A DNA stretch of 64,000 bases, taken from positions 36,409,001 to 36,473,000 of the forward strand of contig NC_091671.1 of the NCBI RefSeq assembly GCF_042453785.1, written 5' to 3'. Shown one piece after another: positions 1,082 through 64,000 of the stretch. The notes beneath the pieces are model-generated. The model saw only the letters and a list, made by a program, of their open reading frames with translations, did no database searches and was not told the DNA's origin. The translations under genes were made by a program, and so were the position numbers. Within the stretch, counting starts at the first letter, position 1. Each line of letters starts with the position of its first letter. Source of the stretch: Malus domestica (Eukaryota; Streptophyta; Magnoliopsida; Rosales; Rosaceae).

Positions 1082-3174
1082 GAACTTTAAAGAAGATTAG
1101 GAAGCCAAAACCGTGGAAGCATCCTCAGCCGTTAACAAAGTCTCAACTCTTGCAGATGCGTGAAGAGTTTTGGGACACTGCTCCTCACTATGGAGGAAGG
1201 AAAGGTAATATTTCCTCTGGATGTATATATATTGACAAGTACTGAAGATTTTTTGGGGTCCACTGAAGGTTCTTAATTCAAATAGTCGTATCATTTTTTA
1301 CATTTACTTGTTTCTAAGTTCCTATTGGGGCACAATATTTTTATTTAACAAAACAACTCGCGTGCTGTGAAATGATAACAAAACAAAGGGTGGCAACTTA
1401 CAAAGGACTATAGAATGAGTTTATATATGAACACACAGTCGAGGGAAAATTAGGGAACATCTCTGGAATCTGGTGCAGTATAGAGTTAGAGTGAGCTGAT
1501 TGTATAGAAGGGTGATAGAAGCTCCTATCATGTGAATATTAACTAGAAAGCAACAAGATGAAATACTTAATTGCTTTTCTAGTCATGTTAAAAATGTCAA
1601 CATAAGCAGTTGGTCTGAGAATTGTTTCCTTTGAGTCGTTTGAGTTCAATTCAACAAACTTATGTACTCATTCGAGACTGAATGACCATTGAGGTCCATA
1701 AGTGTTAAGAAGAACGTGAGTATGAGATATTAAATTACATATGTTTTGGTAAATTTGCTTTCATCCTGAATAATTCATGATTTCTCTACAAACCCGAATT
1801 TCAGTATCGAGTGAACATTCTTAGTAGTGTAGGGGAATATGATTTTCTTATATTGTTGTATGCTCTCTGGTGCAGCGCACCAAGATGGCTGTTGCATTAT
1901 CTGTCTTTAGTCTTGTGCTAGTTGTGCTTCCCTTTTCGGATTGATGAGTGTGGGGTGGGGTGGTGGTGTTGGTGGAGTTGAAGGGGTTGTTCATTACATT
2001 TCATTGTTGTTATCACCATCTAAAAATTTAGCTTTTACTTCAGTTTGGAGATCCTATTAGAGCTCAATCTGTATTATTTGAAACTACTATGATATATTGA
2101 GTAACCCAGGAACTTGTCTAGAAAGTCTTGTAGCTGACAAATGAGCATTTTTTGTTAAATGAGGGCACACCAGAGGTAAGAATAAGGGAGAACCAAAGCT
2201 AACTAGATAAGAGAATAAAAATTTTCACATCATGTGAATGCAATGACAGCTAATGGCTGACCCAAAAAAAAAAAAAAAAAAAAAAAAAGAGAATGAGGAT
2301 TAGCTTCTTGTCCAAGTCTTTAAGATATGATTTGTAATTTTGTATTTAGTTGAACAAGTCCTTCATTAGTGGTCACCACTAACCTCAGGATTAACAAGAA
2401 CAATTGAAAATTGTTGCAATATTACCAATGTTCACACTTTTTTTTTCCGTATATTTTGATGCGGTTGTTTTTGGTTCTTGGGAGTGATGTTGTAGGTTTA
2501 TGCTTGCGATACAAAATTAAATAAAGATCTTTTCAACATGATATTGGTTCAGAATCGTATAAGCACAGAAAAGTGATTATTGTGGTCATTTTCTTGTTTG
2601 ATTTTGAATTGCTACCGTGGTTTTTGTTTCCCTTTTCTAAATTGCATTCTTCACACATGTTATATCTGAAACAAAAATTTCGCCTGTACTGCACATTAGA
2701 GATTTGGGATGCACTTCGAGCTGCTTCTGAGGCAGATCTAAGCCTTGCACAAGCGATTGTGGACAGTGCTGGGGTCATTGTTCAAAGTGCTGATTTGACA
2801 ATTTGCTATGACGAAAGAGGTAGTTAACCATTTTGCACTTTTCTTCATAACTATTTCCTGCCCCCAATAAACTCAAATGCTATGCAGGTTTTTTTTTCCT
2901 GTCTTTAAGCAGGTTTGTGTGCATGTGTGCGTGTGTTGCATTTTAAAGTCAATACCCAGTCTAAGTATGCGTTTACCAGTTTATGTTGTATGCTCCATTG
3001 TTGGCGTGTGAGCTTGTTCCGTCTCTGTACAAATGGCTGATTGCCCTTCATATTTTATTGCCTTCATTTTCAAATCCTCTTAGCGTGCCCTTACATTGCC
3101 CCCTTGCAGGTGCAAAATATGAACTACCCAAGTATGTTTTGAGCGAGCCAACCAACTTAATTCAAGAGAGTTGA
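1082..3174 (+). CDS. Ubiquitin domain-containing protein (UBTD1/2-like), 3' three exons
   Basis: Three exons can be joined by GT/AG rules: 1082-1204, 2700-2819 and 3110-3174, ending at TGA 3172-3174. The product reads KKIRKPKPWKHPQP, then [21 protein letters not shown], then DERGAKYELPKYVLSEPTNL. This is the conserved UBTD (DC-UbP) N-terminal domain, which in animals binds ubiquitin and E2 enzymes. Plant members are about 115 residues and consist of this domain only; about 101 residues are seen here, so only a short N-terminus is missing, lying left of the window. Introns are 1495 and 290 bp. The frame is kept at every junction and no damage is seen, so I regard it as functional. The exact biochemical role in plants is not known to me. 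Confidence 0.9.
2264..2288. repeat. Poly(A) tract
   Basis: A run of about 25 A residues in the second visible intron of the UBTD-like gene. No target duplication or SINE body is evident beside it. Confidence 0.7.
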
Positions 3175-3357
3175 CTCAAGAGAGGATATGACAAACTTTG
3201 TTCACAAGTTTGAATGTAAATCATGTATATTTTTCTCTCGTCTCTTCCATATCTTAAATAGAGATGGTCACTTTTACGCCTTTCCTTTCACGTTCACTTG
3301 AATTCTTCTTAGTTTGCCGCAAGTTTCTTTGGTCAATTGAACAGTAACGCAAGTGTT

Positions 3358-3363
<6 letters not shown>

Positions 3364-3398
<35 letters not shown>
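3364..3398. repeat. (CT)n microsatellite
   Basis: About 17 uninterrupted CT units between the UBTD-like gene and the hAT-derived gene. The rest of 3175-3596 holds the probable 3' UTR of the first gene and no other feature I can support. Confidence 0.95.
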
Positions 3399-3402
<4 letters not shown>

Positions 3403-3596
3403 ACCCGAATGGTAGCTTTTACTGATCGTTTTCACTCTTTGTTTCGAGCTGATGCCCGAGTAGAATCATATAGTTCTGATAGAAAAGAAAATTGTGTTTC
3501 GACCACAAGATGCTAAAATGTTACCATCAACGACCGTCGATAACATTGCTCAAAATGTTAAAACTTACAAAAACCGCAGAACAACAATGCACTTGA

Positions 3597-5351
3597 CTAA
3601 GTCATCACTGATTCATCTACATTGCTTTGATTCGAATCCTTAAAATACTCCACCATGTCATCGGTCCAGTTCTGAGCTCGAAGTTCAGCGTCTTCCCAAT
3701 CCTTCAAGCAAAAACTGCAGTCCAACATTTTTGGAGACTGCATGCTTCTCCTCTGGTCCAAGACCTGCTTACCTGCATTACTAAAAACAAACTCCGGCGC
3801 TATTGCAACCACCGAAGGTGTTAGTAGGTCGCGTGCCATAACAGCAAGCGCAGGGAACCAACCCTCGCTCGATTTCCACCATTCTAGAACATCAAGATTG
3901 ACATACTCTTGATTGCTCATGGTGCCACGGTGATTCATCCCCAAGTATCTATGAAGTTCAGTTGGCCCATACTTCTGTTCTTCTTTTTTCCTCAGTTTTG
4001 CATGAAACTCAGCCATCAATCTCTTCGTGTAGTCATTGCTGTGAAATTCGGCTTCTTCATCTTCACCTTCTGTTTTTCTCTTTGCAAATTCTGATTCGTA
4101 AACCTTGTAAAGGTTATGCAACAATGTCTCGACAGATTTCGCATCAGCTTTCAGCGGCACGGTTAAGTTCTGGGAAATTTCATTTAACCTCAGCTCTACG
4201 CCGTGTAACTGCATTCGAGGGTCCATTGCAGCAGCTAAACATATACCAGGCAACATTTCCTCACAGTAATTTCTGAGTTTTGATTCCATTATTTCGTAAA
4301 CTGGTTTAAACCCGGAATGATCTCTGTGTTCCGAAAATGTAGAACTAATGAAGCAAAAATGCTTGAGAATGAAACAAGAACTGCGAGAATAAACGTTTGA
4401 ACTCAATGTGGTTGCAGCTTCATAAAAAACCTTCAAAAACTCCATAAAAACAAAGCAAAGCTCCCAATCTTTTTCAATTAAACAACCGGTATCGGGTTTA
4501 TTATTGTAAAAATCATAGATTGCATCCTTGTAATCCACCAAAGATCTTAGCATCAGATAAGTAGTGTTCCAGTGACTCCTGCTATCTGGTTTTAACTTTC
4601 GGCGTTTTAAACCGCGAAGTAAACAGAAAGTATTCCAATCATATTGCCTAGAAGAAGAAGAAACATAAACCACAACTGCCCTAAGTGTTTCCATGCGAAT
4701 TTCCATCAATTTCAACCCTTCTTGTACAATTGAATTAATCACGTGTCCTAAACATTTCATGTCCGAAAAACGAACTCCATTAGGATGATGCAGAGCATTT
4801 CGAAACATATCAACGATAGCATCGTTGTGAATATTATTATCAAAGGTGATAGCAGAAACTTTGTCATCAATTGAATACTCCCTAAATATATCCATCATGC
4901 ATTGAAATATGACACAATCACTATGAGGGTATTCGAGCATACGAAAACCGATAATTCTCTTCTGCAACATCCAAGAAGAATCAATAAAATGCGCAGTCAC
5001 GCAAACAAAACCAAGCCGATCATCGCTGCAACTCCAAAAACTAGAACTCAGAGAAATTGTACCCGTGAAACTAGCAAATTCTGATATCAATTTGTTCTTC
5101 TTTTCACTAAAAAGTTTCAAGCAGTCGCTTTTAATAAGGAATGGGGGAAGAGTAACGTACTTGGGTTGAATACAGCCTTTGATGAACGTCTCGAATCTGA
5201 CATTTTCGGCAGGAGTGGAAAGTTGGCCTGTTGAAGTAATGTATTTGGCCATACCTTCTCTGGTATTGTAGTGAAAGTACTCAAAAGTTGGTATAGAGTT
5301 GCTTCCAGAACTATCACTATCAGCAGCTTCATTGATTTCGACATCATCCAT
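3597..5351 (-). CDS. hAT transposase-derived protein (RICESLEEPER-like, no BED finger)
   Basis: Single-exon ORF of 584 aa. The order is an acidic Ser-rich N-terminus (1-25), an RNase H-fold hAT core (about 60-460), and a C-terminal hAT dimerisation region (about 468-560) with LDVLEWWKSSEGWFPALAVMA and VLDQRRSM. Active hAT proteins usually start with a BED zinc finger; none is present. In the core, the usual first catalytic Asp (family motif TTDxWTS) is replaced: residues 102-107 read SSSFWS. A second Asp (ITFDNN, D171) remains. No terminal inverted repeats were found around the gene, and a TATA box lies 133 bp upstream. I read it as an exapted transposase, probably a nuclear DNA-binding or dimerising protein. 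Three decayed relatives lie in this window at 10762, 22870 and 24390. Confidence 0.8.
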   Translation of the reverse strand: MDDVEINEAADSDSSGSNSIPTFEYFHYNTREGMAKYITSTGQLSTPAENVRFETFIKGCIQPKYVTLPPFLIKSDCLKLFSEKKNKLISEFASFTGTISLSSSFWSCSDDRLGFVCVTAHFIDSSWMLQKRIIGFRMLEYPHSDCVIFQCMMDIFREYSIDDKVSAITFDNNIHNDAIVDMFRNALHHPNGVRFSDMKCLGHVINSIVQEGLKLMEIRMETLRAVVVYVSSSSRQYDWNTFCLLRGLKRRKLKPDSRSHWNTTYLMLRSLVDYKDAIYDFYNNKPDTGCLIEKDWELCFVFMEFLKVFYEAATTLSSNVYSRSSCFILKHFCFISSTFSEHRDHSGFKPVYEIMESKLRNYCEEMLPGICLAAAMDPRMQLHGVELRLNEISQNLTVPLKADAKSVETLLHNLYKVYESEFAKRKTEGEDEEAEFHSNDYTKRLMAEFHAKLRKKEEQKYGPTELHRYLGMNHRGTMSNQEYVNLDVLEWWKSSEGWFPALAVMARDLLTPSVVAIAPEFVFSNAGKQVLDQRRSMQSPKMLDCSFCLKDWEDAELRAQNWTDDMVEYFKDSNQSNVDESVMT

Positions 5352-5483
5352 GTCCAGAAGAAACTTCGAAAAGATGAATTACGCGGAAAAGATGTGAAGA
5401 GATGATTGAATACTTGTAGCCGTTGAGGACTCGGAGGAGTTGCTAGAACTGTGAGAAAAAGAAGGAAGGAGAAAGCTTTAGGG

Positions 5484-11420: not shown

Positions 11421-12037
11421 CAACAACAACAACAACAACAACAAAGCCTTTTCCCACTGAGTGGGATCGGCTATATGAATCCTAGAACGTCCTTGCGCTC
11501 GGTTTTGTGTCATGTCCTCCGTTAGATCCAAGTACTCAAGTCTTTTCTTAGGGTCTCTTCCAAAGTTTTCCTAGGTCTTCCTCTACCCCTTCGACCCTGA
11601 ACCTCTGTCCCGTAGTCACATTTTCGAACCGGAGCGTCAGTAGGCCTTCTTTGCACATGTCCAAACCACCGGGACCGATTTTCTCTCATATTTCCTTCAA
11701 TTTTGGCTACTCCTACTTTACCTCGGATATCCTCATTCCCAATCTTATCCTTTCTCGTGTGCCCATACATCCCACGAAGCATCCTCATCTCCGCTACACC
11801 CATTTTGTGTACGTGTTGATGCTTCACCGCCCAACATTCTGTGCCATACAACATCGATGGCCTTATTGCCGTCCTATAAAATTTTCCCTTGAGCTTCAGT
11901 GGCCTACGACGATCACACAACACACCGGATGCACTCTTACACTTCATCCATCCAGCTTGTATTCTATGGTTGAGATCTCCATCTAATTCTCCGTTCTCTT
12001 GCAAGATAGATCCTAGGTAGCGAAAGCGGTCACTTTT
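11421..12037 (-). mobile_element. RTE-type LINE, 3' segment
   Basis: It begins with a (CAA)n tract, which is the minus-strand (TTG)n tail, and then cactgagtgggatcggctat, the typical 3' end of plant RTE LINEs. The minus strand encodes the C-terminal part of the LINE protein (RFRYLGSILQENGELDGDLN, then RRGRGRPRKTLEETL). It ends abruptly at about 12037, where another element begins. The homologous segment is present a second time at 15993-16575, at an estimated 94% identity. Confidence 0.85.
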
Positions 12038-13648
12038 TGTGATCTTCGCTAGATTGCTCCGGTCATTAGTGTGAATAAGTATATAAATGGATAGAGATAG
12101 GAAAGCAAACACAAGATGTACGTGGTTCACCCATATTGGCTACGTCCACGGAATAGAAGAGTTCTCATTAATTGTGAAGGGTTTACACAAGTACATAGGT
12201 TCAAGCTCTCCTTTAGTGAGTACAAGTGAATGATTTAGTACAAATGACATTAGGAAATATTGTGGGAGAATGATCTCGTAACCATGAAACTTCTAAGTAC
12301 CGGAGTGTGGTATCGTCTTGACTTGCCTTATCTGTCTCATAGGTAGATGTGTCATCTTCTCTGGAAGTACTTTTCCTCCATCCAGGGGTAGTATCTGTAA
12401 CTGGTGGAGATGCACAAGGTAATGTATCAATTTCACTCGAAGCTTACTTGTAGTTTCAGGCTCGGTCAAGCGCGATACAAACCATGTAGTAGGAGTCCCC
12501 CAAGTCGCCGAGCTAGGGGATCTGCTGAAAGAGGTGACAGACAAGGTAAGCAATCAGAGCTCCGGCTGATTGTTCACATTCTCCCTATCTTGCAGGCAGC
12601 ATGAAGGATAAAGAGAAGAAAAATGAGAAGAGATGATATGAGATACTTTTGCTTTTGAAGAAGTAACTTTCCACAGGCTTATTCTTGAACTGGGCTGGAG
12701 GGTTTTCTGGTTTCCTCCAGAGTATAAGGCCGACTGAAGAATTTGAGGGTCAAAACAAGTCCATCAAATCTAGAGTACGTTCGACCCTGCTGATATGGGA
12801 TACTTTTGCTTTTGACAGAGTAGTGGATGTATCGGCACGTGTGTGCTGTTACGCTTGTCTCCACATGCTTCCTTGTATCCTTCTCACTTGCCCTATCTGT
12901 TCCTCAGGCAGATGCGGTATCTTCCCTGGAAGCATAAGATGTTGAAGATGCGTACTCGAGAGCAATGCCAGGTAAGTAATCAGGTAAGGGGTTCCAGGCA
13001 GTCAGTTCCTGGCTGGAAGCTTGATTCCAAGTGCTGACTGATTGCTCTCTTTCTCCTTGTCTTGCAGGTAAGAACAAGGCCAAAGGAAAAGACAAGGAAA
13101 AAACATGATATGGGATACTCTTGCTTTTAACCCTTATGATATGAGATATTCTTGCTCTAGTATAGCTTGTTTACAGAGGTATTATCGGGGGGGGAAAGAA
13201 AGCTGAATATTTCGAAAGGCTTCGTTTGGAGTGCCCTCTCAGATAAGAGGAAGGGTTGAGCATTTTTGCAGGTCTGCCTGTCCGTTGGGGATGGAGGTCG
13301 ACATATATAGGAGTCTCCCTAACATCAAGTAATAATGCTATTCCTTTACCCTGCTTGGTCATAGCACGGTAGTGGGAGCTGCCAGCTTCACATGTTTTAA
13401 CTCTGTCAGAGCACTTTGAAAAAGTGGTCTGTGGTATCTGGAAAGCTGATGTTGCGTGTGAAGATTACAGACAAGCTTTATCCAAGGAGATCCAGCTCTT
13501 GAAGTTGGGAAAGTGGTGCCTCTTCGGTTTTCGAACAAGCAATCCTGTCGGGGATCTGGCTCTCGAGATTCGGAGAACGATGCCTCTTCGATTTTTGAGA
13601 AAGCAATCCTGCTGGGGGTCTGACTCTCGAGATTCGGAGAGCGGTGTC

Positions 13649-15992: not shown

Positions 15993-18900
15993 TCACTGAG
16001 TGGGATCGGCTATATGAATCTTAGAACGCCATTGTGTTCTGTCCTGTGTCATGTCCTCCGTTAGATCCAAGTACTCTAAGTCTTTTCTTAGGGTCTCTTC
16101 CAAAGTTTTCCTAGGTCTTCCTCTACCCCTTCGACCCTGAACCTCTGTCTCATAGTCGCATCTTCTAATCGGAGCGTCAGTAGGCCTTGTTTGCACATGT
16201 CCAAACCACCGTAACCGATTTTCTCTCATCTTTCCTTCAATTTCGGCTACTCCTACTTTACCCCAGATATCCTCATTCCTAATCTTATCCTTTCTCGTGT
16301 GCCCACACATCCAACGAAGCATCCTCATCTCCGCTACACCCATTTTGTGTACGTGTTGATGCTTCACCGCCCAACATTCTGTGCCATACAGCATCGCCGG
16401 CCTTATTGCCGTCCTATAAAATTTTCCCTTGAGCTTCAGTGGCATACGGCGGTCACACAACACGCCAGATGCACTCTTCCACTTCATCCATCCAGCTTGT
16501 ATTCTATGGTTGAGATCTCCATCTAATTCTCCGTTCTTTTGCAAGATAGATCCTAGGTAACGAAAACGGTCGCTCTTTGGTATTTCTTGATCTCCGATCC
16601 TCACCCCTAACTCGTTTTGGCCTCCATTTGCACTGTACTTGCACTCCATATATTCTGTCTTTGATCGGCTTAGGCAAAGACCTTTAGATTCCAACACTTC
16701 TCTCCAAAGGTTAAGCTTTGCATTTACCCCTTCCTGAGTTTCATCTATCAACACTATATCGTCTGCGAAAAGCATACACCAAGGAATATCATCTTGAATA
16801 TGTCCTGTTAACTCATCCATTACCAACGCAAAAAGGTAAGGACTTAAGGATGAGCCTTGCTGTAATCCTACAGTTATGGGAAAGCTTTCGGTTTGTCCTT
16901 CATGAGTTCTTATGGCAGTCTTTGCTCCTTCATACATATCCTGTATAGCTTGGATATATGCTACTCGTACTCATTTCTTCTCTAAAATCCTCCAAAGAAT
17001 GTCTCTTGGGACCCTATCATACGCTTTTTCCAAATCTATAAAGACCATGTGTAAATCATTTTTCCCATCTCTATATCTTTCCATCAATCTTCGTAAGAGA
17101 TAGATTGCCTCCATGGTTGAGCGCCCTGGCATGAACCCGAATTGGTTGTCCGAAACCCGTGTCTCTTGCCTCAATCTATGCTCAATGACTCTCTCCCAGA
17201 GCTTCATTGTATGACTCATTAGCTTAATACCCCTATAGTTCATGCAATTTTGTACATCGCCCTTATTCTTGTAGATAGGCACCAAAGTGCTCGTTCGCCA
17301 CTCATTTGGCATCTTCTTCGTTTTCAAAATCCTATTGAAAAGGTCAGTGAGCCATGTTATACCTGTCTCTCCCAAAACTTTCCACACTTCGATTGGTATA
17401 TCGTCTGGGCCTACTGCTTTTCTATGCTTCATCTTCTTCAAAGCTACAACCACTTCTTCCTTCCGGATTCTACGATAAAAAGAGTAGTTTCTACACTCTT
17501 CTGAGTTACTCAACTCCCCTAAAGAAGCACTCCTTTCATGTCCTTCATTGAAAAGATTATGAAAATAACCTTTCCATCTGTCTTTAACCGCGTTCTCTGT
17601 AGCAAGAACCTTTCCATCCTCATCCTTGATGCACCTCACTTGGTTTAGGTCCCTTGTCTTCTTTTCCCTTGCTCTAGCTAGTTTATAGATATCCAACTCT
17701 CATTCTTTGGTATCTAGTCGCTTATACATATCGTCATAAGCCGCTAACTTAGCTTCTCTCACAGCTTTCTTCGCCTCTTGCTTCGCTTTTCTATACCTTT
17801 CACCATTTTCATCGGTCCTATTCTTGTATAAGGCTTTACAACATTCCTTCTTAGTCTTCACCTTTGTTTGTACCTCCTCATTCCACCACCAAGATTCCTT
17901 TTGGTGTGGGGCAAAGCCCTTGGACTCTCCTAATACCTCTTTTGCTACTTTTCGGATACAACTAGCCATGGAATCCCACATTTGGTTAGCTTCCCCCTCT
18001 CTATCCCACACACACTGCGTGATTACTTTCTCTTTGAAAATGACTTGTTTTTCTTCTTTTAGATTCCACCATCTAGTCCTTGGGCACTTCCAAGTCTTGT
18101 TCTTTTTTCTCACTCTTTTGATATGTACATCCATCACCAACAAGCGATGTTGATTAGCCACGCTCTCTCCTGGTATAACTTTGCAATCCTTACAAGTTAT
18201 ACGATCCCCTTTCCTCATTAGAAGAAAATCTATTTGTGTTTTTGACGACCCACTCTTGTAGGTGATCACATGTTCTTCTCTCTTCTTAAAGAAGGTGTTG
18301 GCTAAGAAGAGATCATATGCCATTGCAAAATCCAAGATAGCTTCCCCATCCTCGTTTCTCTCCCCAAAACCATGGCCACCATGAAAACCTCCATAGTTGC
18401 CTGTCTCCCTGCCCACGTGTCCATTTAAATCTCCTCCTATAAATAACTTCTCCGTCTGAGCAATTCCTTGCACCAAGTCTCCAAGGTCTTCCCAAAATTT
18501 CTCCTTCGAACTCGTATCCAACCCTACTTGAGGTGCGTACGCACTAATCACATTGATAAGTTCTTGTCATATTACAATCTTGATTGCCATGAGTCTATCT
18601 CCTACCCTCTTGACATCTACAACATCTTGTGTCAAGGTCTTGTCCACGATGATGCCAACACCGTTTCTCGTTCTATTTGTGCCCGAATACCATAGTTTAA
18701 ACCCTGAGTTTTCTAGATCCTTTGCCTTACGACCAACCCACTTAGTTTCTTGTAAGCACATAATATTTATCATTCTCCTCACCATAACTTCTACTACTTC
18801 CATAGATTTTCCCGTCAAGGTTCCTATATTCCACGTTCCTAAAGGCATTTTGCTCCCTTGAACTCTACCCTTCTGTCCTAGCTTCTTCACCCTTCCCCGT

Positions 18901-19151
18901 CTAATCGGATCAAAGTACTTCTTTTGTGTGTCCCGTGTAAAGTTGATAGGAGCATATGCTCCCAAACAACTTTGAGTGGAGTCGTTCGAAAAAAAGTTTC
19001 TATAGCCCCCTTGCTCATTTAACACTGCATCCGGGTGCCGATGGAGATACAACGACCCTTGCTCACTTATCACTGTGCTCGGGCCACACAGCGCACCACT
19101 TACGGGTGACGCCCTAGCTTTAGCGCGATTTCGTTCTGGATTCATTTTCAT
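15993..19151 (-). pseudogene. LINE endonuclease/reverse transcriptase, three in-frame TGA
   Basis: One reading frame of 1053 codons runs from ATG 19151 to TGA 15993 with no frameshift. It is interrupted only by TGA codons at 18567, 17700 and 16971. Order: an AP-type endonuclease (LGTWNIGTLTGKSMEVVEVM, LQETKW, FIGGDLNGHVG), then reverse transcriptase ([39 protein letters not shown], and catalytic FADD at about 16758-16769), then the RTE C-terminus (RPRKTLEETL). It would copy LINE RNA at nicked target DNA, but three stops should prevent a full protein. Confidence 0.85.
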
Positions 19152-19263
19152 AAGGATTCGACGTAATCATGGAGTGCCGGCTGTCGACTACCTGACGCCC
19201 TCCCCCTCCTCCTTTATCCGGGCTTGGGACCGGCAATGTAAGATAAACTTACACGGCGGAGTT
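15993..19263 (-). mobile_element. RTE-type LINE, nearly complete body
   Basis: Minus-strand element with its 5' end at 19263, abutting the right target duplication (19264-19283). The 3' end is cut at the TGA (15993-15995) within cactgagtggg, where the LARD-like insertion starts, so the normal (TTG)n tail is missing on this segment and appears only at 11421. With 11421-12037 it forms the outer element of a nested 7.84-kb insertion. Confidence 0.85.
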
Positions 19264-19938: not shown

Positions 19939-21624
19939 TTAGACCAATTCAACTTGGCAAGTCGTAGAACCCCTTTTCTGTGTTAACTCTTTGTATAACC
20001 CATTGTGAATAGTCATCTTATTCAAAACTTTACCATTCTCTAACAGATACTTTGCCACTTTCTTCTCATGCGGGTATCCCTTGAATCCCCTTATAGTGAT
20101 AGTCTTGAGGTGTGATATTAAACAAATAGGCACAGACTCTGGTGTACTCCATCGATGCTCTGAGTATAAGACATGTTTTAAGTACTCATGCTCATCATAA
20201 TCGTCAGCACATTCCTTATCCTGAAAAAATGTGAATGAAATGAGTATAGTAAAGAGCTGCACGTTGGAATGACTTAGCATGTGCGAAAATACTGAAATAC
20301 ATCTTACTTCTTCATATTCTACGACAAGATATTCCAAAATAGGTGATCTCTTGAGCAACTCTGTTAGCAAATCCCAATGATAGCAATCGTGAAGAACCAG
20401 CTTCAGTTCTCTTAAATTATCAAATGCCGGTAGACAATGACCCTTCATGAAAGATAATATATCGATAAAACAAAAACTCATGCATAAATTAAATATTTAC
20501 TTATGCAGAACATACTGTTTCCTTCTACCTTCCTATACCAAACACCAAAACAACAACACACAAGCCTTATCCCCGTAAGTGGGGTCGACTGTATGAATCC
20601 TCTCTACCAAACATAGTATAAAAGAAATAGGTTAAAGAATATTTACCTTCAAAAAATGATGAGCTGATAGAGAAAGACACTGAACATTAGAAATTCCTGC
20701 CAGACAGGTAATTGCACGGTTATCGAAATTGGGTTGTAGATTCTCCGCATTATGGAAAAAGAGAGTAAAACTGGCTTTAACAAGGGATTTGACGTTCACA
20801 AATATATAACTCGACAAAATATCCTGCCTGATAACAAGGTTTTCAAGCTTCGGACAACTAATAAAAATACTGTGGTTCTGATCATGATCTCCAACATCTA
20901 CAGGTAAGTTCAACCTTAATGTGTTTAATTCAGGCGCAGAGATCTTGTAATTCAAAACCTCATATTGACCAAGAAGTCCCATTATAGTTAAATCTTCAAG
21001 TACAGGGCAGCAAGAAAAAATCTTTTCCACCGAGTCACTATCGGGATATTCAGCTCCGACATAGAGGGTCTTGAGATTTAGGAAGCACCCTGATGTAGGA
21101 GGACTGTAGCTAATACAATTTGAATACACCTTCAAAGCCACAAGTGTTTTACAACTGAAAATGCATTGAGGAAACTCAAATATAAAATCATCACTAGAAT
21201 CCGTTTCAACTAGAAGGTCAAGTTCAACGACATTATGCTGGACGGCAGTTTGAATCCAACCATCAATACGAGAGAAATCGTCACTAGAGCAGACCCAATG
21301 AAGACGAAACTTTTTAATGTCTATTGATGAATCACGAAGGGAAAGCACACGATCAACAAAGGTCGAAAAACCAACAGTGTCGCACTTATATTTCTTTTCC
21401 GCGATACAACGGTTTGATCTATCTTCAAAGTCCAGATTAGGAACAGAAGCCCATATGTTCTTCCATCTGTTGGACAGAATGCTGCTCCTCACAGCATACT
21501 TTGTTGGAATTAAGGAAAGTATGTGACAAAGAACAGCATCTGGCAATCGACTAATCCTATCTTCACCTCCTGCTCGAGGCTTTGAATTCTCTTTTAGTCT
21601 TCGAGTCTCCGAATTCGAACCCAT
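19939..21624 (-). CDS. F-box/FBD/LRR-repeat protein
   Basis: Three exons on the minus strand: 21624-20647, 20442-20308 and 20220-19939, both introns in phase 0 with GT/AG ends. The predicted protein has 464 aa. F-box at about 22-62 ([33 protein letters not shown]); LRR-like repeats at about 130-330 (FSCCPVLEDL, CPKLENLVI); FBD domain in the last exon, about 372-464 (LISHLKTITIRGFKGYPHEK). The family links substrates to SKP1-cullin ubiquitin ligases; substrates of FBD members are mostly unknown. The ATG at 21624 is used; the in-frame codon at 21630 is GTG. No stop or frameshift is seen. Intron 1 contains a LINE tail (20545-20604). It is the only intact F-box copy in the window. Confidence 0.85.
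20545..20604 (-). mobile_element. RTE LINE 3' tail fragment in F-box intron
   Basis: Reads caaaacaacaacacacaagc and then ccccgtaagtggggtcgact, the 3' end of a plant RTE LINE with its (TTG)-type tail on the minus strand. It is flanked by taccaaaca at 20536-20544 and 20605-20613, a possible 9-bp target duplication. It is about 60 bp and strongly 5'-truncated. Confidence 0.75.
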
Positions 21625-22172
21625 TTTCACATCTGTTTAGAATTTTGATAACAAAATGTAAATATTGAAACTAAAAACTCTTAATTTACGCTTCCTTCCA
21701 ATTACTTTTACAAACTTTAATCTGTTCATATATAATATTGACATATGAAATTCTACTTCTCTAGAGAAATTAAAACAAAAAACCCAATTAATGGAACATT
21801 TTTTGCGGAAACGAATTCAATTCAATCTAGAAATTAGCAGCTGAAAAGAAAGATTAAGTAATCTTAACAATTCACAAATAAACAACGCAAAAGGGCAAGG
21901 GTTGAATTTTATACTATTAATTTGGAAGTTTTCTTGGTAACCAAACAGAAGGTAAGGAAGTAGATGAAGCAAAATACCTGAAACGCTGTGATTGGTTACT
22001 GGGAAACGGCGGGAACAACTGAGGAACTACCTTTTGACCATGGCTGTCTGTATTGCTGCAACTGCGAGAGTGAAGCTTCTATCCAGGCTTCCCACACTCC
22101 CGTTTAGCACCCCTTTATTTGGGCTTTACTTTGGGCTTTGCCACATTTTTATTGTTGGATTGGGCTTTTTCA
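21625..22172. other. Upstream flank of the intact F-box gene
   Basis: AT-rich 5' flank, collinear with 10030-10400. No gene is supported. Confidence 0.5.
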
Positions 22173-60739: not shown

Positions 60740-60862
60740 TAACAGTCTAAAAACCAATCCATTTTTCAGAAATGGAATCATAATCCCTTTTCGAAACCCA
60801 AAAAAGAAGAAAATCTAGCCGATTACAAAATGATTCAACACATTGTGGTGACCAAAATTTCC

Positions 60863-61637
60863 TTATTCCCAGCCGGTAGGAGCGGGAACTCCACCTTCAA
60901 CAATGGGGGCAGTAGCCAGAGCCTGTGGTGGTGGAACCGCCGAATCCCATCCATTTGCTACTATTGGTGCTGCTTCTACGGTCCAGCCAGGAGCTGCAGG
61001 GATGGGTGCAGATGCATCCGTTGGCCACTAAGCATCAGATATTTGGGCAGACCAATCACCGCCAATAGGTGCAGAGAAATCGTTGCCGTACTCGATTGCT
61101 GCAGTTTCTTCTTCCTTTTCCTTGGCCTCCTCAGGCTCTCTATAGAAGAATAGATCAACCATAACATCCCACTTGTGACTGGGAAGGAGTGAACCACGCA
61201 TTTCCAAGACCATCCTTGTTGGAGCCAGAAAAGACATCCTATGCTGTGCTTGCCCTTGTTAATTGTTATTGGCTGGGATGCCAATATCAACATAACGCAT
61301 AGAAGAATCGGTGTCACAGAAAGCAATGGTGGGAATGTTTCCGAGAGCAGCTTCCTTAATGGGCTGGCTGTCAGTTCGTGGATCGGTCAAAATGAGAAGA
61401 CGGGGTTCATTGAATGATGTCTGGAGCTGATTGGTAAAAGTACCAGGAGTGTGCCTGCCAGCAATTGCATTGGCACTAGTGTGCTTAGCAAATTTCAGTA
61501 CAGCCCTCTGACTGTATGGCCTTGCGGATTGCTCAATGATATCCTTTGGGTTTTCAATCGCAACAATCACTCTGGCTGCCAGCTGCAGCTTGTCCCAAGT
61601 TTTCCCAAGATTAATGATATAGATTCCATCGTTGCGT
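60863..61637 (-). pseudogene. 40S ribosomal protein SA (RPSA/uS2) pseudogene
   Basis: The minus strand reads [60 protein letters not shown] and [12 protein letters not shown] short insertion (about 7 nt) then shifts the frame and creates a stop, and a second small indel restores it before [24 protein letters not shown] interrupts SDA/WPTD before the end PAPTGWE and TAA 60863. No introns interrupt about 250 codons, which fits a retrocopy, although no poly(A) is visible. The N-terminal part is cut off by the LTR element at 61638. Confidence 0.88.
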
Positions 61638-61798
61638 TGTTAGGATGCCAGGTGGCATCATCTTGTGGTGACAATTAGAGTTGAGCATGAGTATAAATAG
61701 TACATTGTAAGAGAAGGAAGGGAGTTAATGAAATGATATTGTTGTTCTGTTAGTATTTCTCTGTGCAATTGTAGAAGATGTGGAGCTAGGTTCTAACA
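61638..61798 (+). repeat. 5' LTR, 161 bp
   Basis: Begins TGTTAGGATGCC and ends GGTTCTAACA (TG...CA with a short inverted TGTTAG/CTAACA end). It contains TATAAATA at 61692-61699, a likely promoter. Confidence 0.92.
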
Positions 61799-61799
61799 T

Positions 61800-61811
61800 T
61801 GGTATCAGCCA
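61800..61811 (+). promoter_or_regulatory. tRNA-Met primer-binding site
   Basis: TGGTATCAGCCA, one base after the 5' LTR, matches the usual TGGTATCAGAGC start for initiator tRNA-Met over the first nine bases and then differs. Confidence 0.75.
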
Positions 61812-61871
61812 GCGTTGATCCTCTCAATCCTTCTCCGTTGTATAACGCCGCAAACATTTTGCAAAAAAACC

Positions 61872-63422
61872 ATGGAATCGAGGGTTTCCAATCTGGCAGC
61901 CCAGTTCGACGAATTCAAGAAGTCTCACGACTTGATTCTTCTTCAATTGCGGTCCCTCATGGCTAAGGGTCACGATTCAATATCGAATTCGAGGCAACCA
62001 TTCTTCAAAATGGCGTCTCATATCTCTGTTGTGAAATCGGATGAAATTGTTCTCAAGCTTCAATCCTTCCACAACGAAAAGATTCAAGCCCGTGAGAAAA
62101 GAGATGAATTCTGGTCTCAATTTCGTCCAAGATACAAGCCCAAGACTCGTTCTGGTCTACGACCCATATTGAAGAAATTCAAGAAGGTGCATGACTACGG
62201 CAAATACCACAAAGATGATTCTACAAAGTTTCGTTCCAGTTCCAAATTTCAAGAAATTTTTGGGTTTTTTCGAAGTGAATTGGCTGGAAAGAATGCAAAG
62301 GTTTTCGATTTACTCGACAAGAAAGTTGAAGACCCTGTGAAAAGTCCTCCATTTCTTGATTCTGATTGCATGAAATCCAAGATTCAAGCTTGCGTTCTGG
62401 GTTCTTCATCTCCTAACGAATTGGTTGCTGCGTTTAGCGATAAATTCAATCAATTCAGGACGTCGACTTCGTCTAATCGGGAATTTCACTGCACGAACGA
62501 CTTGGCCCAAGAATTCATTTTCATAATTTCCGTATCTGATGATGGGTTCGTGAAAATTGATTCACTTGCACTCCAAGTGTTTAATGAAAGGTCACACTCA
62601 GCAGATTGTGATTTTCAGTTGGGCTATCACATGCCGATTTCTGACACCGGAGGTACACTTTGTAGGTTCTTTACTTCGAATGTTCAAATTAAAGATGCTC
62701 ATAGTTCTAAATTTCTTGTTTGTCATGGTGAAGTCATGAAAAATGCTACTATTGTGCATTTGAAGCTTGGTTTCCATGAGTTAATTCGTGACAAGGGTGG
62801 GACAATTAGCCAGAGGCTCTTTAATTCAAAGTCCAAGAATACAGATTGTGCTCGGGGTTTTGATTGTTCCACGGTGGTCAAACGTGAGGTAAGTTTTGAT
62901 TCTTCCATGATCATTGATGGGGAGTATGCTGGTATTTTAGGATTGCATCATTTAGAAGCTTGTATGGACAAGAATAGAAAACATGAAAGCAAGTTCACTC
63001 TCTCCAGATTTGGAAATGGTTGCTGTATTGTTTGCTGTGTTGTTTGCCGTGTTGTTCTCAATCGTGACTATTGCAAGGGCATTCGGGATAAGGGTGGTGG
63101 CTCAAAATTCTGGTACAATGTCGCAATAAAGTGTGCAACTATCACTCCAGATGAAACTCGTGTTAAGGAGTTCCACTTGAAACAGATGTGGAGGAGTCCA
63201 AATGGGACCATACGGAACCATTTAAATGGTACTGTTTTTGGAGAACCTTTTATCTGCAGAAATGTTATCCTTCTTGTTCCAGATTGGACAATGCCAACAT
63301 GTATTGGGAGACATGTTTTTGGTGCTCAGTACCGAGCAACTGATGCAATCATAGAAGGACCTGGAAAACTTAAATTGGTTTTTGAAGCATCTTGCTATCG
63401 AATCAGGGAAGAAATATGTTAG
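61872..63422 (+). CDS. Element-encoded chimeric protein with captured NADP-isocitrate dehydrogenase segment
   Basis: Intact 516-aa frame from ATG 61872, the first ATG after the primer site. The N-terminus [20 protein letters not shown] looks like the start of retroelement Gag-type proteins, which is a weak resemblance. The middle (about 120-420) is not recognised; it repeats the phrase IRDKGGxxS / [14 protein letters not shown] two or three times. The C-terminal 85-90 residues (63118-63380) read [40 protein letters not shown] and [20 protein letters not shown], clearly cytosolic-type NADP-isocitrate dehydrogenase, including the substrate-binding SPNGTIRN and GRHxxGxQYRATD regions. The Asp usual in GDQYR is Ala. 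No intron lies in the captured piece. Enzyme activity is not expected, since the dinucleotide and metal sites are absent. Confidence 0.75.
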
Positions 63423-63829
63423 GGAGGATTATCCGGTTCATATGTTTTATAGGCAGAAGAAACTAACATTTGAAAGTAATGTTCATGGATCTTTTGGTTT
63501 GCAGTCATATCCATCACAAGCAATACGCTTATGTTGATCAAATGATTTGGTCAATACCATTGCTCAACTTTTTTGGAGGGTGTAATGTGGAGTCAAGGCA
63601 GTGAGCTACTCTGCTACGCTAGAGAAGCAATGCTGATTGCTAGTGAAGTGAGTCCAATGGCAGAACCATTTCAGGAATGATGCTATTGGAGAGCTATACC
63701 ATGGACTGAAGCTTAAGTTCCAGAAATTGTGAACCTTTAATACATTCTTGTGATGTTGTTGTTATAGTTTTATTGCTGGTTTTCAATTGTACTTACTTCG
63801 AAATTGTAAATCTTACTTGTAAGATTGGT

Positions 63830-63844
63830 TTTAAGGGGGGGGTA
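63830..63844 (+). promoter_or_regulatory. Polypurine tract
   Basis: taaggggggggta directly before the 3' LTR start (TGTTAGG at 63846); primes plus-strand synthesis. Confidence 0.8.
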
Positions 63845-63845
63845 T

Positions 63846-64000
63846 TGTTAGGATGCCAGGTGGCATCATCTTGTGGTGACAATTAGAGTTGAGCATGAGT
63901 ATAAATAGTACATTGTAAGAGAAGGAAGGGAGTTAATGAAATGATATTGTTGTTCTGTTAGTATTTCTCTGTGCAATTGTAGAAGATGTGGAGCTAGGTT
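63846..64000 (+). repeat. 3' LTR, cut by window end
   Basis: Identical to 61638-61792 over 155 bases. The last six bases (expected to end in ACA) lie outside the window. Confidence 0.92.

Follow-up and report, generated by a model that had tools for sequence, protein, structure and literature searches.

Retroviral oncogene transduction proceeds by read-through and splicing, in which a viral donor is joined to a host acceptor, and is followed by a template switch in reverse transcription. The carriers in that system are animal retroviruses, whereas the element described here is from a plant, is non-autonomous and has several genes joined at one base. Among the closest plant systems is Bs1 of maize, likewise a non-autonomous LTR element with several host pieces, exons only, in one hybrid frame; we compare it by description, and the available parts of its accounts contain no fixed splice-donor join (PMC13317346, PMC4717578). 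The soybean TRIM GmaRetroS15 carries casein-kinase exons 5-9 in a small LTR element with introns absent. It differs in being of the TRIM class, in having one captured gene and in a join that the available part of the source does not link to an element splice donor (PMC4717578). Ogre, EVADE and BARE1 are intron-bearing plant LTR elements with alternatively spliced RNA; in the text available, this splicing yields subgenomic RNAs and no host-exon capture is described (PMC12786077). A 2026 review, in its available portion, explains plant LTR capture via read-through and abnormal template switching (PMC13317346). The available text of PMC13317346, PMC12786077, PMC3726574 and PMC4717578 describes no element in which a fixed splice donor serves capture repeatedly, and the subscription literature lies largely outside this set. 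Capture as in Bs1 was found here both in the window element (ICDH) and in its family, with six genes at one join and two more on a related backbone. Splice-donor capture is best read as a variant of Bs1-type capture, and may be a new one.

The window element and its ICDH segment

The window is the whole stretch of DNA analysed, 64,000 nucleotides long (C11:36409001-36473000), and searches were run over the 651-Mb genome (19 contigs). The feature at its right end is confirmed as a non-autonomous LTR element with a 516-codon frame that ends in an intron-free NADP-ICDH segment (Table 1). The initial annotation had described a recently moved element of this kind, Bs1-like, with an intron-free ICDH in an open frame, and this description holds. 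A 156-nt direct repeat within the window is 100% identical. With the missing bases fetched, the LTR pair is identical at 161/161 positions, starts with TG and ends with CA, and is flanked by TGCGT on both sides; the LTR identity reported earlier was thus correct, and the length of 155 bp given with it reflects the window cut. The primer-binding site and polypurine tract named in the same annotation are both present beside the LTRs (at 61800 and before the 3' LTR). In 300 first-order Markov sequences of matching make-up, frames reached at most 264 codons, against 516 observed. Pfam gave Iso_dh alone in the window ORF and no gag-pol domains. TRIMs are very short elements, about 1 kb or less, without a long coding frame; at its length and with its 516-codon frame the window element falls outside this class.

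Table 1. Features of the element, in window positions
Feature	Position	Strand	Details
Target-site duplication, 5' copy	61633..61637	.	TGCGT; 3' copy just outside the window
Whole element	61638..64006		~2.37 kb; ends six bases past the window end at 64000
5' LTR	61638..61798	+	161 bp, TG...CA; direct repeat
Primer-binding site	61800..61808	+	TGGTATCAG; presumably of the tRNA-iMet type
Chimeric ORF	61872..63422	+	516 codons + TAG
Donor-side segment	63080..63112	+	31 pre-join bases 63080-63110 and join bases TG 63111-63112; at 28 loci
Captured NADP-ICDH	63113..63384	+	272 nt; exons 38+78+54+102 nt, introns gone
Stretch at the 3' join	63385..63403	+	19 nt without assignment
Element sequence resumed	63404..63503	+	inside the 'intron' region of the element itself; L057 and L059 match
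Polypurine tract	63833..63842	+	AAGGGGGGGG
3' LTR	63846..64000	+	cut by the window; six more bases to C11:36473006

Recent movement of the window copy is indicated by its LTRs (0/161 mismatches) and by a copy at C2:4975003-4977376 with one nonsynonymous difference over 516 codons. The C2 copy has the same structure, 0/161 LTR mismatches and the target-site duplication TGGAT. A third copy, C10:30637649-30640149, is 2.5 kb long, open for 556 codons from ATG, and has one LTR mismatch and the duplication CTATC. It is a mosaic: residues 1-76 are identical to the window copy, after which it diverges into a different middle, and the ICDH segment is at 0.989 identity. The ends and ICDH of this copy are near-identical to those of the window copy, and its middle is of another lineage. 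An older copy, L021 (C11:11.68 Mb), is interrupted by stops and is missing part of the first exons, and its ICDH run is longer. The window copy splits a copy of ribosomal protein SA, intron-less by eye, on the minus strand (window ~60850-61637). The left flank matches Pfam Ribosomal_S2, and the joined flanks are continuous across the insertion point, the split copy resuming past the window end after the target duplication.

Residues of about 414-506 of the ORF match NADP-ICDH (PDB 5h3f, E=3.4e-35). Pfam Iso_dh scored 6.2e-5 on the whole ORF (under the curated cut-off) and 1.9e-6 on the piece alone (just over it). Alignment to host ICDH genes, a check proposed earlier, showed that the piece spans four host exons and their junctions, with three host introns removed. 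It is bordered on the 5' side by a host acceptor (TAG) and on the 3' side by the end of a host exon, and covers about residues 66-160 of 410-425. Identity to the two closest host genes is 0.937 over 268 sites (L034, C10) and 0.922 over 270 sites (L035, C5), and the hosts are 0.963 identical to each other. The L034 gene (C10:33.70 Mb) has a 2-nt deletion in the third exon of the captured piece and what looks by eye like a change at a conserved residue; because of the deletion, this parent may be decaying. The dN/dS ratio is 0.9 for window-L034, 0.46 for window-L035 and 0.12 between the hosts. As these values come from 4 to 8 synonymous changes, they say that strong constraint is not seen and nothing more. 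The window ICDH does not appear to be a functional NADP-ICDH under purifying selection, and the suggestion that it was kept for its protein finds no backing in these few sites.

Copies sharing the ICDH piece were found, as the initial annotation had asked: those on C2, on C10 and at C11:11.68 Mb carry it at the same join. L021 and the window copy have the states CCAGATTGG and ACATGTTTTTGG, which both hosts lack, and for this reason the ICDH of all four copies is taken as one capture that was probably altered later. The capture had been thought very young; a join common to four copies and a divergence of 6-8% from the nearest hosts lead us to reject this. The check on copies without ICDH, named beforehand as a finding against the capture, has a mixed outcome: such copies do exist, but in these the same base joins other host genes or the element's own sequence.

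The middle of the window protein was tested as a known gene and rejected, with no domain and no host parent among the genome matches. Pfam found no domain outside ICDH, and a PDB search gave one weak match (E=0.32). The genome search returned 61 matches in 34 merged loci, many with stops, which were taken as family copies. The earlier proposal of further captured genes is right for the family and is not supported for the middle of this copy. The repeated IRDKGG phrase noticed in the window copy does recur in the family, several times per ORF and with differing continuations. The proposed dN/dS comparison between copies gave 0.91 for the upstream frame against L021 and 0.49 and 0.74 against two segments of the C10 copy, so the DNA is without sign of strong selection on the upstream protein. 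Whole-ORF values for the C10 and other divergent pairs mix in non-homologous stretches.

A common join base in the family

The ICDH segment begins at a host exon start and is fused to ...AAATTC(A/T)G. We scanned the whole genome with the 31 pre-join bases (up to 3 mismatches), using the reversed pattern as a control. The scan returned at least 28 loci and the control 0; repeat counts from such a pattern are lower bounds. Eleven of the 28 loci were already among the sequences compared and 17 were retrieved as short stretches. A sequence change at the identical base fits all 28. Aligned copies read ...GGTGGTGGCTCAAAATTC(A/T)G or nearly so before the join, with the exception of L058. After the join, six loci (L057, L059, L073, L074, L075 and L082) continue into the element's own splice-donor-like GTATATGG or GTATAC, one (L053) runs straight into the downstream exon of the element, with the intron removed, and 21 continue into a host-gene segment. 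The host segments are ICDH (4), ARID-HMG (2), HAD (2), MurA/EPSPS-type (2), kinase (1), the L085 gene (1), the L076 gene (2) and IST1 (7), and six of the eight captures are present in more than one copy. The join bases are AG (15), TG (4), AA (5), CA (2), TA (1) and CG (1); the non-AG pairs are read as probable later decay of an original AG. None of the seven IST1 copies has AG at the join (AA, CA, CG). TTCTG replaces TTCAG in L072 (HAD lineage) and at window 63111-63112 (ICDH lineage). Three further loci are outside the 28. L020 and L048 have too many pattern differences and still agree with the join reading; L058 disagrees, its PPR sequence starting 11 nt before the join with the site unused. 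In L048 a PPR segment lies upstream of an intact donor. The family captures by another route too (L058, L048).

The uncaptured form reads in frame ...TTCAG/GTATATGG...CATCTTAG/TAA (slashes mark joins). Measured from GTATATGG to CATCTTAG, this removable in-frame intron has a length of 393 nt in L057 and of 327 nt in L059; it has the form GT...AG, is a multiple of 3 and is free of in-frame stops. L020 and L053 are without this donor-to-acceptor stretch, with one extra A in L053, which indicates that the donor has its own acceptor and that spliced-looking genomic copies exist. Judged from these copies, the intron loss in L020 and L053 may be a single event. Taken alone it could be a chance deletion, because the intron is open coding sequence. 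In L075 (C9:26.35 Mb) the element's own intron turns after ~65 nt into a sequence that looks by eye like UDP-glycosyltransferase; this short stretch had no Pfam match.

Host parents of the ARID, kinase, MurA, HAD, L076, IST1, L085 and ICDH segments were located by genome search and their preceding bases fetched. Gene names were assigned by Pfam (kinase, ARID, EPSP synthase, IST1) or PDB (4uav for HAD, E=6.9e-8); the labels MurA, CBBY and HMG are presumptive. Paired host genes were seen on C5/C10, C9/C17 and C3/C11. YAG precedes the host segment in 8/8 genes (11 parent sequences). For six of the eight joins a host exon start is likely, as judged from sequence and not from annotation: ICDH (TAG/GTACAATG), ARID (TAG/GATTCC), MurA (CAG/GGATGG), HAD (CAG/GAAGAG), IST1 (CAG/CAAAATG) and the L085 gene (CAG/GGAACC). 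In five of these six genes, at least one parent copy has an in-phase stop just 5' of the join (for ICDH this is L034, not L035). The L085 gene has no in-phase stop in 48 nt, and its 43-nt match is flanked by CAG/ and /GTAAAT. The preceding exon of host ICDH we take, from a motif, to lie ~340 bases upstream of the join. Host sequence is open in phase across the other two joins, and the kinase and L076 genes would therefore need a cryptic acceptor. Introns are absent inside seven captures (ICDH, ARID, MurA, HAD, L076 gene, IST1 and L085 gene).

The host frame could be checked by domain or PDB match for ICDH, ARID, kinase, EPSPS-type, IST1 and HAD, and all six fusions are in frame. At one third each, this result has a chance probability of about 0.0014 if the events are independent; the loci were selected by upstream sequence and not by frame. 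Among the MurA copies, L041 has an in-frame stop soon past the join, and the 49 codons examined in L086 are free of stops.

At 17 of the 28 loci, the window element's upstream protein has a match close by. At the other 11 (seven IST1 loci, L076, L084, L082 and L086) the short segment alone matches, with L086 linked also by its MurA capture. We retrieved ~1.4 kb upstream of one IST1 locus (L093, C10:8.47 Mb) and one L076-gene locus (L094, C10:7.25 Mb). The window-family match before the join is limited to the last 34-60 bases in L093 and 47-117 bases in L094, depending on the copy compared, and both carry another upstream frame, alike by eye. Nine of the 28 loci (seven IST1, two L076 gene) are thus probably on a different backbone, as checked at these two loci and extended to the other six IST1 loci and to L084. 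Because L093 and L094 match the donor-side bases alone, we count six captured genes in the window family and two on the related backbone.

Routes of capture

The DNA itself shows that joins fall on one donor-side base, that segments begin at apparent exon starts of the host, that introns are gone, that fusions are in frame and that most captures have several copies. Joining of an element donor to a likely host exon start, as in splice-mediated transduction, was found at six of eight joins, with YAG at all eight. We consider it likely (probability about 0.8), from the genomic sequence, that the family captures exons of the host by way of a single resident 5' splice site, by splicing and then reverse transcription. 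In the RNA of the element, the donor would be joined by splicing to a 3' splice site of a host gene to give a chimeric RNA, either by neighbouring-gene read-through or by trans-splicing. A borrowed reverse transcriptase would copy the chimeric RNA, a template switch to normal element RNA would regain the 3' end, polypurine tract and LTR, and daughter copies would multiply after capture. We infer the RNA step, its cis or trans form, the 3' template switch and the helper. Since one donor-side base joins eight genes, each after its own YAG, the splicing step is directly testable by chimeric reads. A Ty3/gypsy element probably serves as the helper, and L049 and L050 are candidates for this role. 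In L049, domains of an aspartic protease, of RNase H and of a Tf2-1-like SH3 type were recognised, and it matches at 73% over query bases 38-257 (LTR and leader). The L050 frame 3116-3577 had no Pfam match. No element remnant was found within 6 kb around the closest ICDH parents (L034, L035). This counts against the splicing reading, as do the two joins in open host sequence, the nine loci probably on another backbone, the AG missing from the IST1 joins, the PPR captures of L058 and L048, and the join and 3' ends, described below, that suit template switching. L036 and L037 have a short repeat in common with L057, and L039 has a 25-nt match.

Template switching is surely active in the family. 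The ARID-to-kinase join of L056 lies within 7 shared nt, as is typical of template switching; the C10 mosaic has an identical first part and a different middle, and the PPR segment of L058 ignores the site. Of the four 3' ends examined, two coincide with the end of a host exon (ICDH of the window copy, MurA of L041) and two are inside exons (L021 ICDH, L056 ARID). Template switching fits the latter two and does not explain the former, and in the window copy the exact exon end is followed by 19 nt and then by the element's intron region. That it alone made the fixed join, by ordinary switches between element RNA and host mRNA packaged with it, at a hot spot of the element and with splicing uninvolved, is unlikely. 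A spliced mRNA is unmarked at its exon borders, yet the exon starts and the YAG recur on one element base, and few letters are common to element and parent before most joins. Splicing is favoured over template switching alone because of the donor regularity, the exon starts, the removed introns and the common phase. Somewhat less likely still is a shuffling of segments by recombination after few founding captures, so that the eight joins would not be eight independent events. The family is indeed mosaic, two element backgrounds or more contain the kinase piece, and the donor segment sits on a second backbone. But cassette swaps cannot create new exact exon starts, and each of the eight segments, from different host genes, starts at its own host YAG; shuffling might cut the number of independent events, mainly for the kinase. 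The window by itself shows one captured gene and could be taken for a processed ICDH pseudogene hit by two LTRs, or for a one-off Bs1-like capture without wider meaning. We regard this as very improbable, given matched target-site duplications at three loci (TGCGT, TGGAT, CTATC) with 0, 0 and 1 LTR mismatches, an ICDH join common to four copies at unlinked loci, and other genes on the same base.

Beyond exon capture by splicing, we tentatively propose that the family acts as a permanent trap for exons. Its mobile 5' half, which has an open frame and a donor in phase 2, would be fused again and again, in frame, to exons of the host, and such fusions would be favoured as proteins or by escaping RNA decay. 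The donor segment would itself have spread to a second backbone, and the youngest lineage, to which the window copy belongs, may still be moving and producing new in-frame fusions with host genes. This wider proposal is possible and distinctly more doubtful than the capture itself. The upstream dN/dS values given above and the stops in many family matches argue against a favoured protein. The in-frame domain fusions form a natural series that can serve studies of exon shuffling and of how new genes arise, and the short donor-side marker sequence helps to find more captures.

Other sequences in the family and the window

L057 has a BTB domain (Pfam E=1.2e-5). L020 and L053 carry, by eye, a TH2-like HAD phosphatase; a PDB search with this piece gave weak matches only. 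L054 has a SINE-like insert between short repeats at ~2211-2380, also seen by eye. Elsewhere in the window, a 593-codon open stretch at 3597-5378 (minus strand) looks by eye like a hAT transposase. Adjoining LINE-like frames (endonuclease, reverse transcriptase) were seen by eye at 15993-19166 (minus strand), and a second, partial LINE-like stretch at 11522-12139. The stretch at 19939-21636 (minus strand) looks by eye like an F-box/LRR gene.
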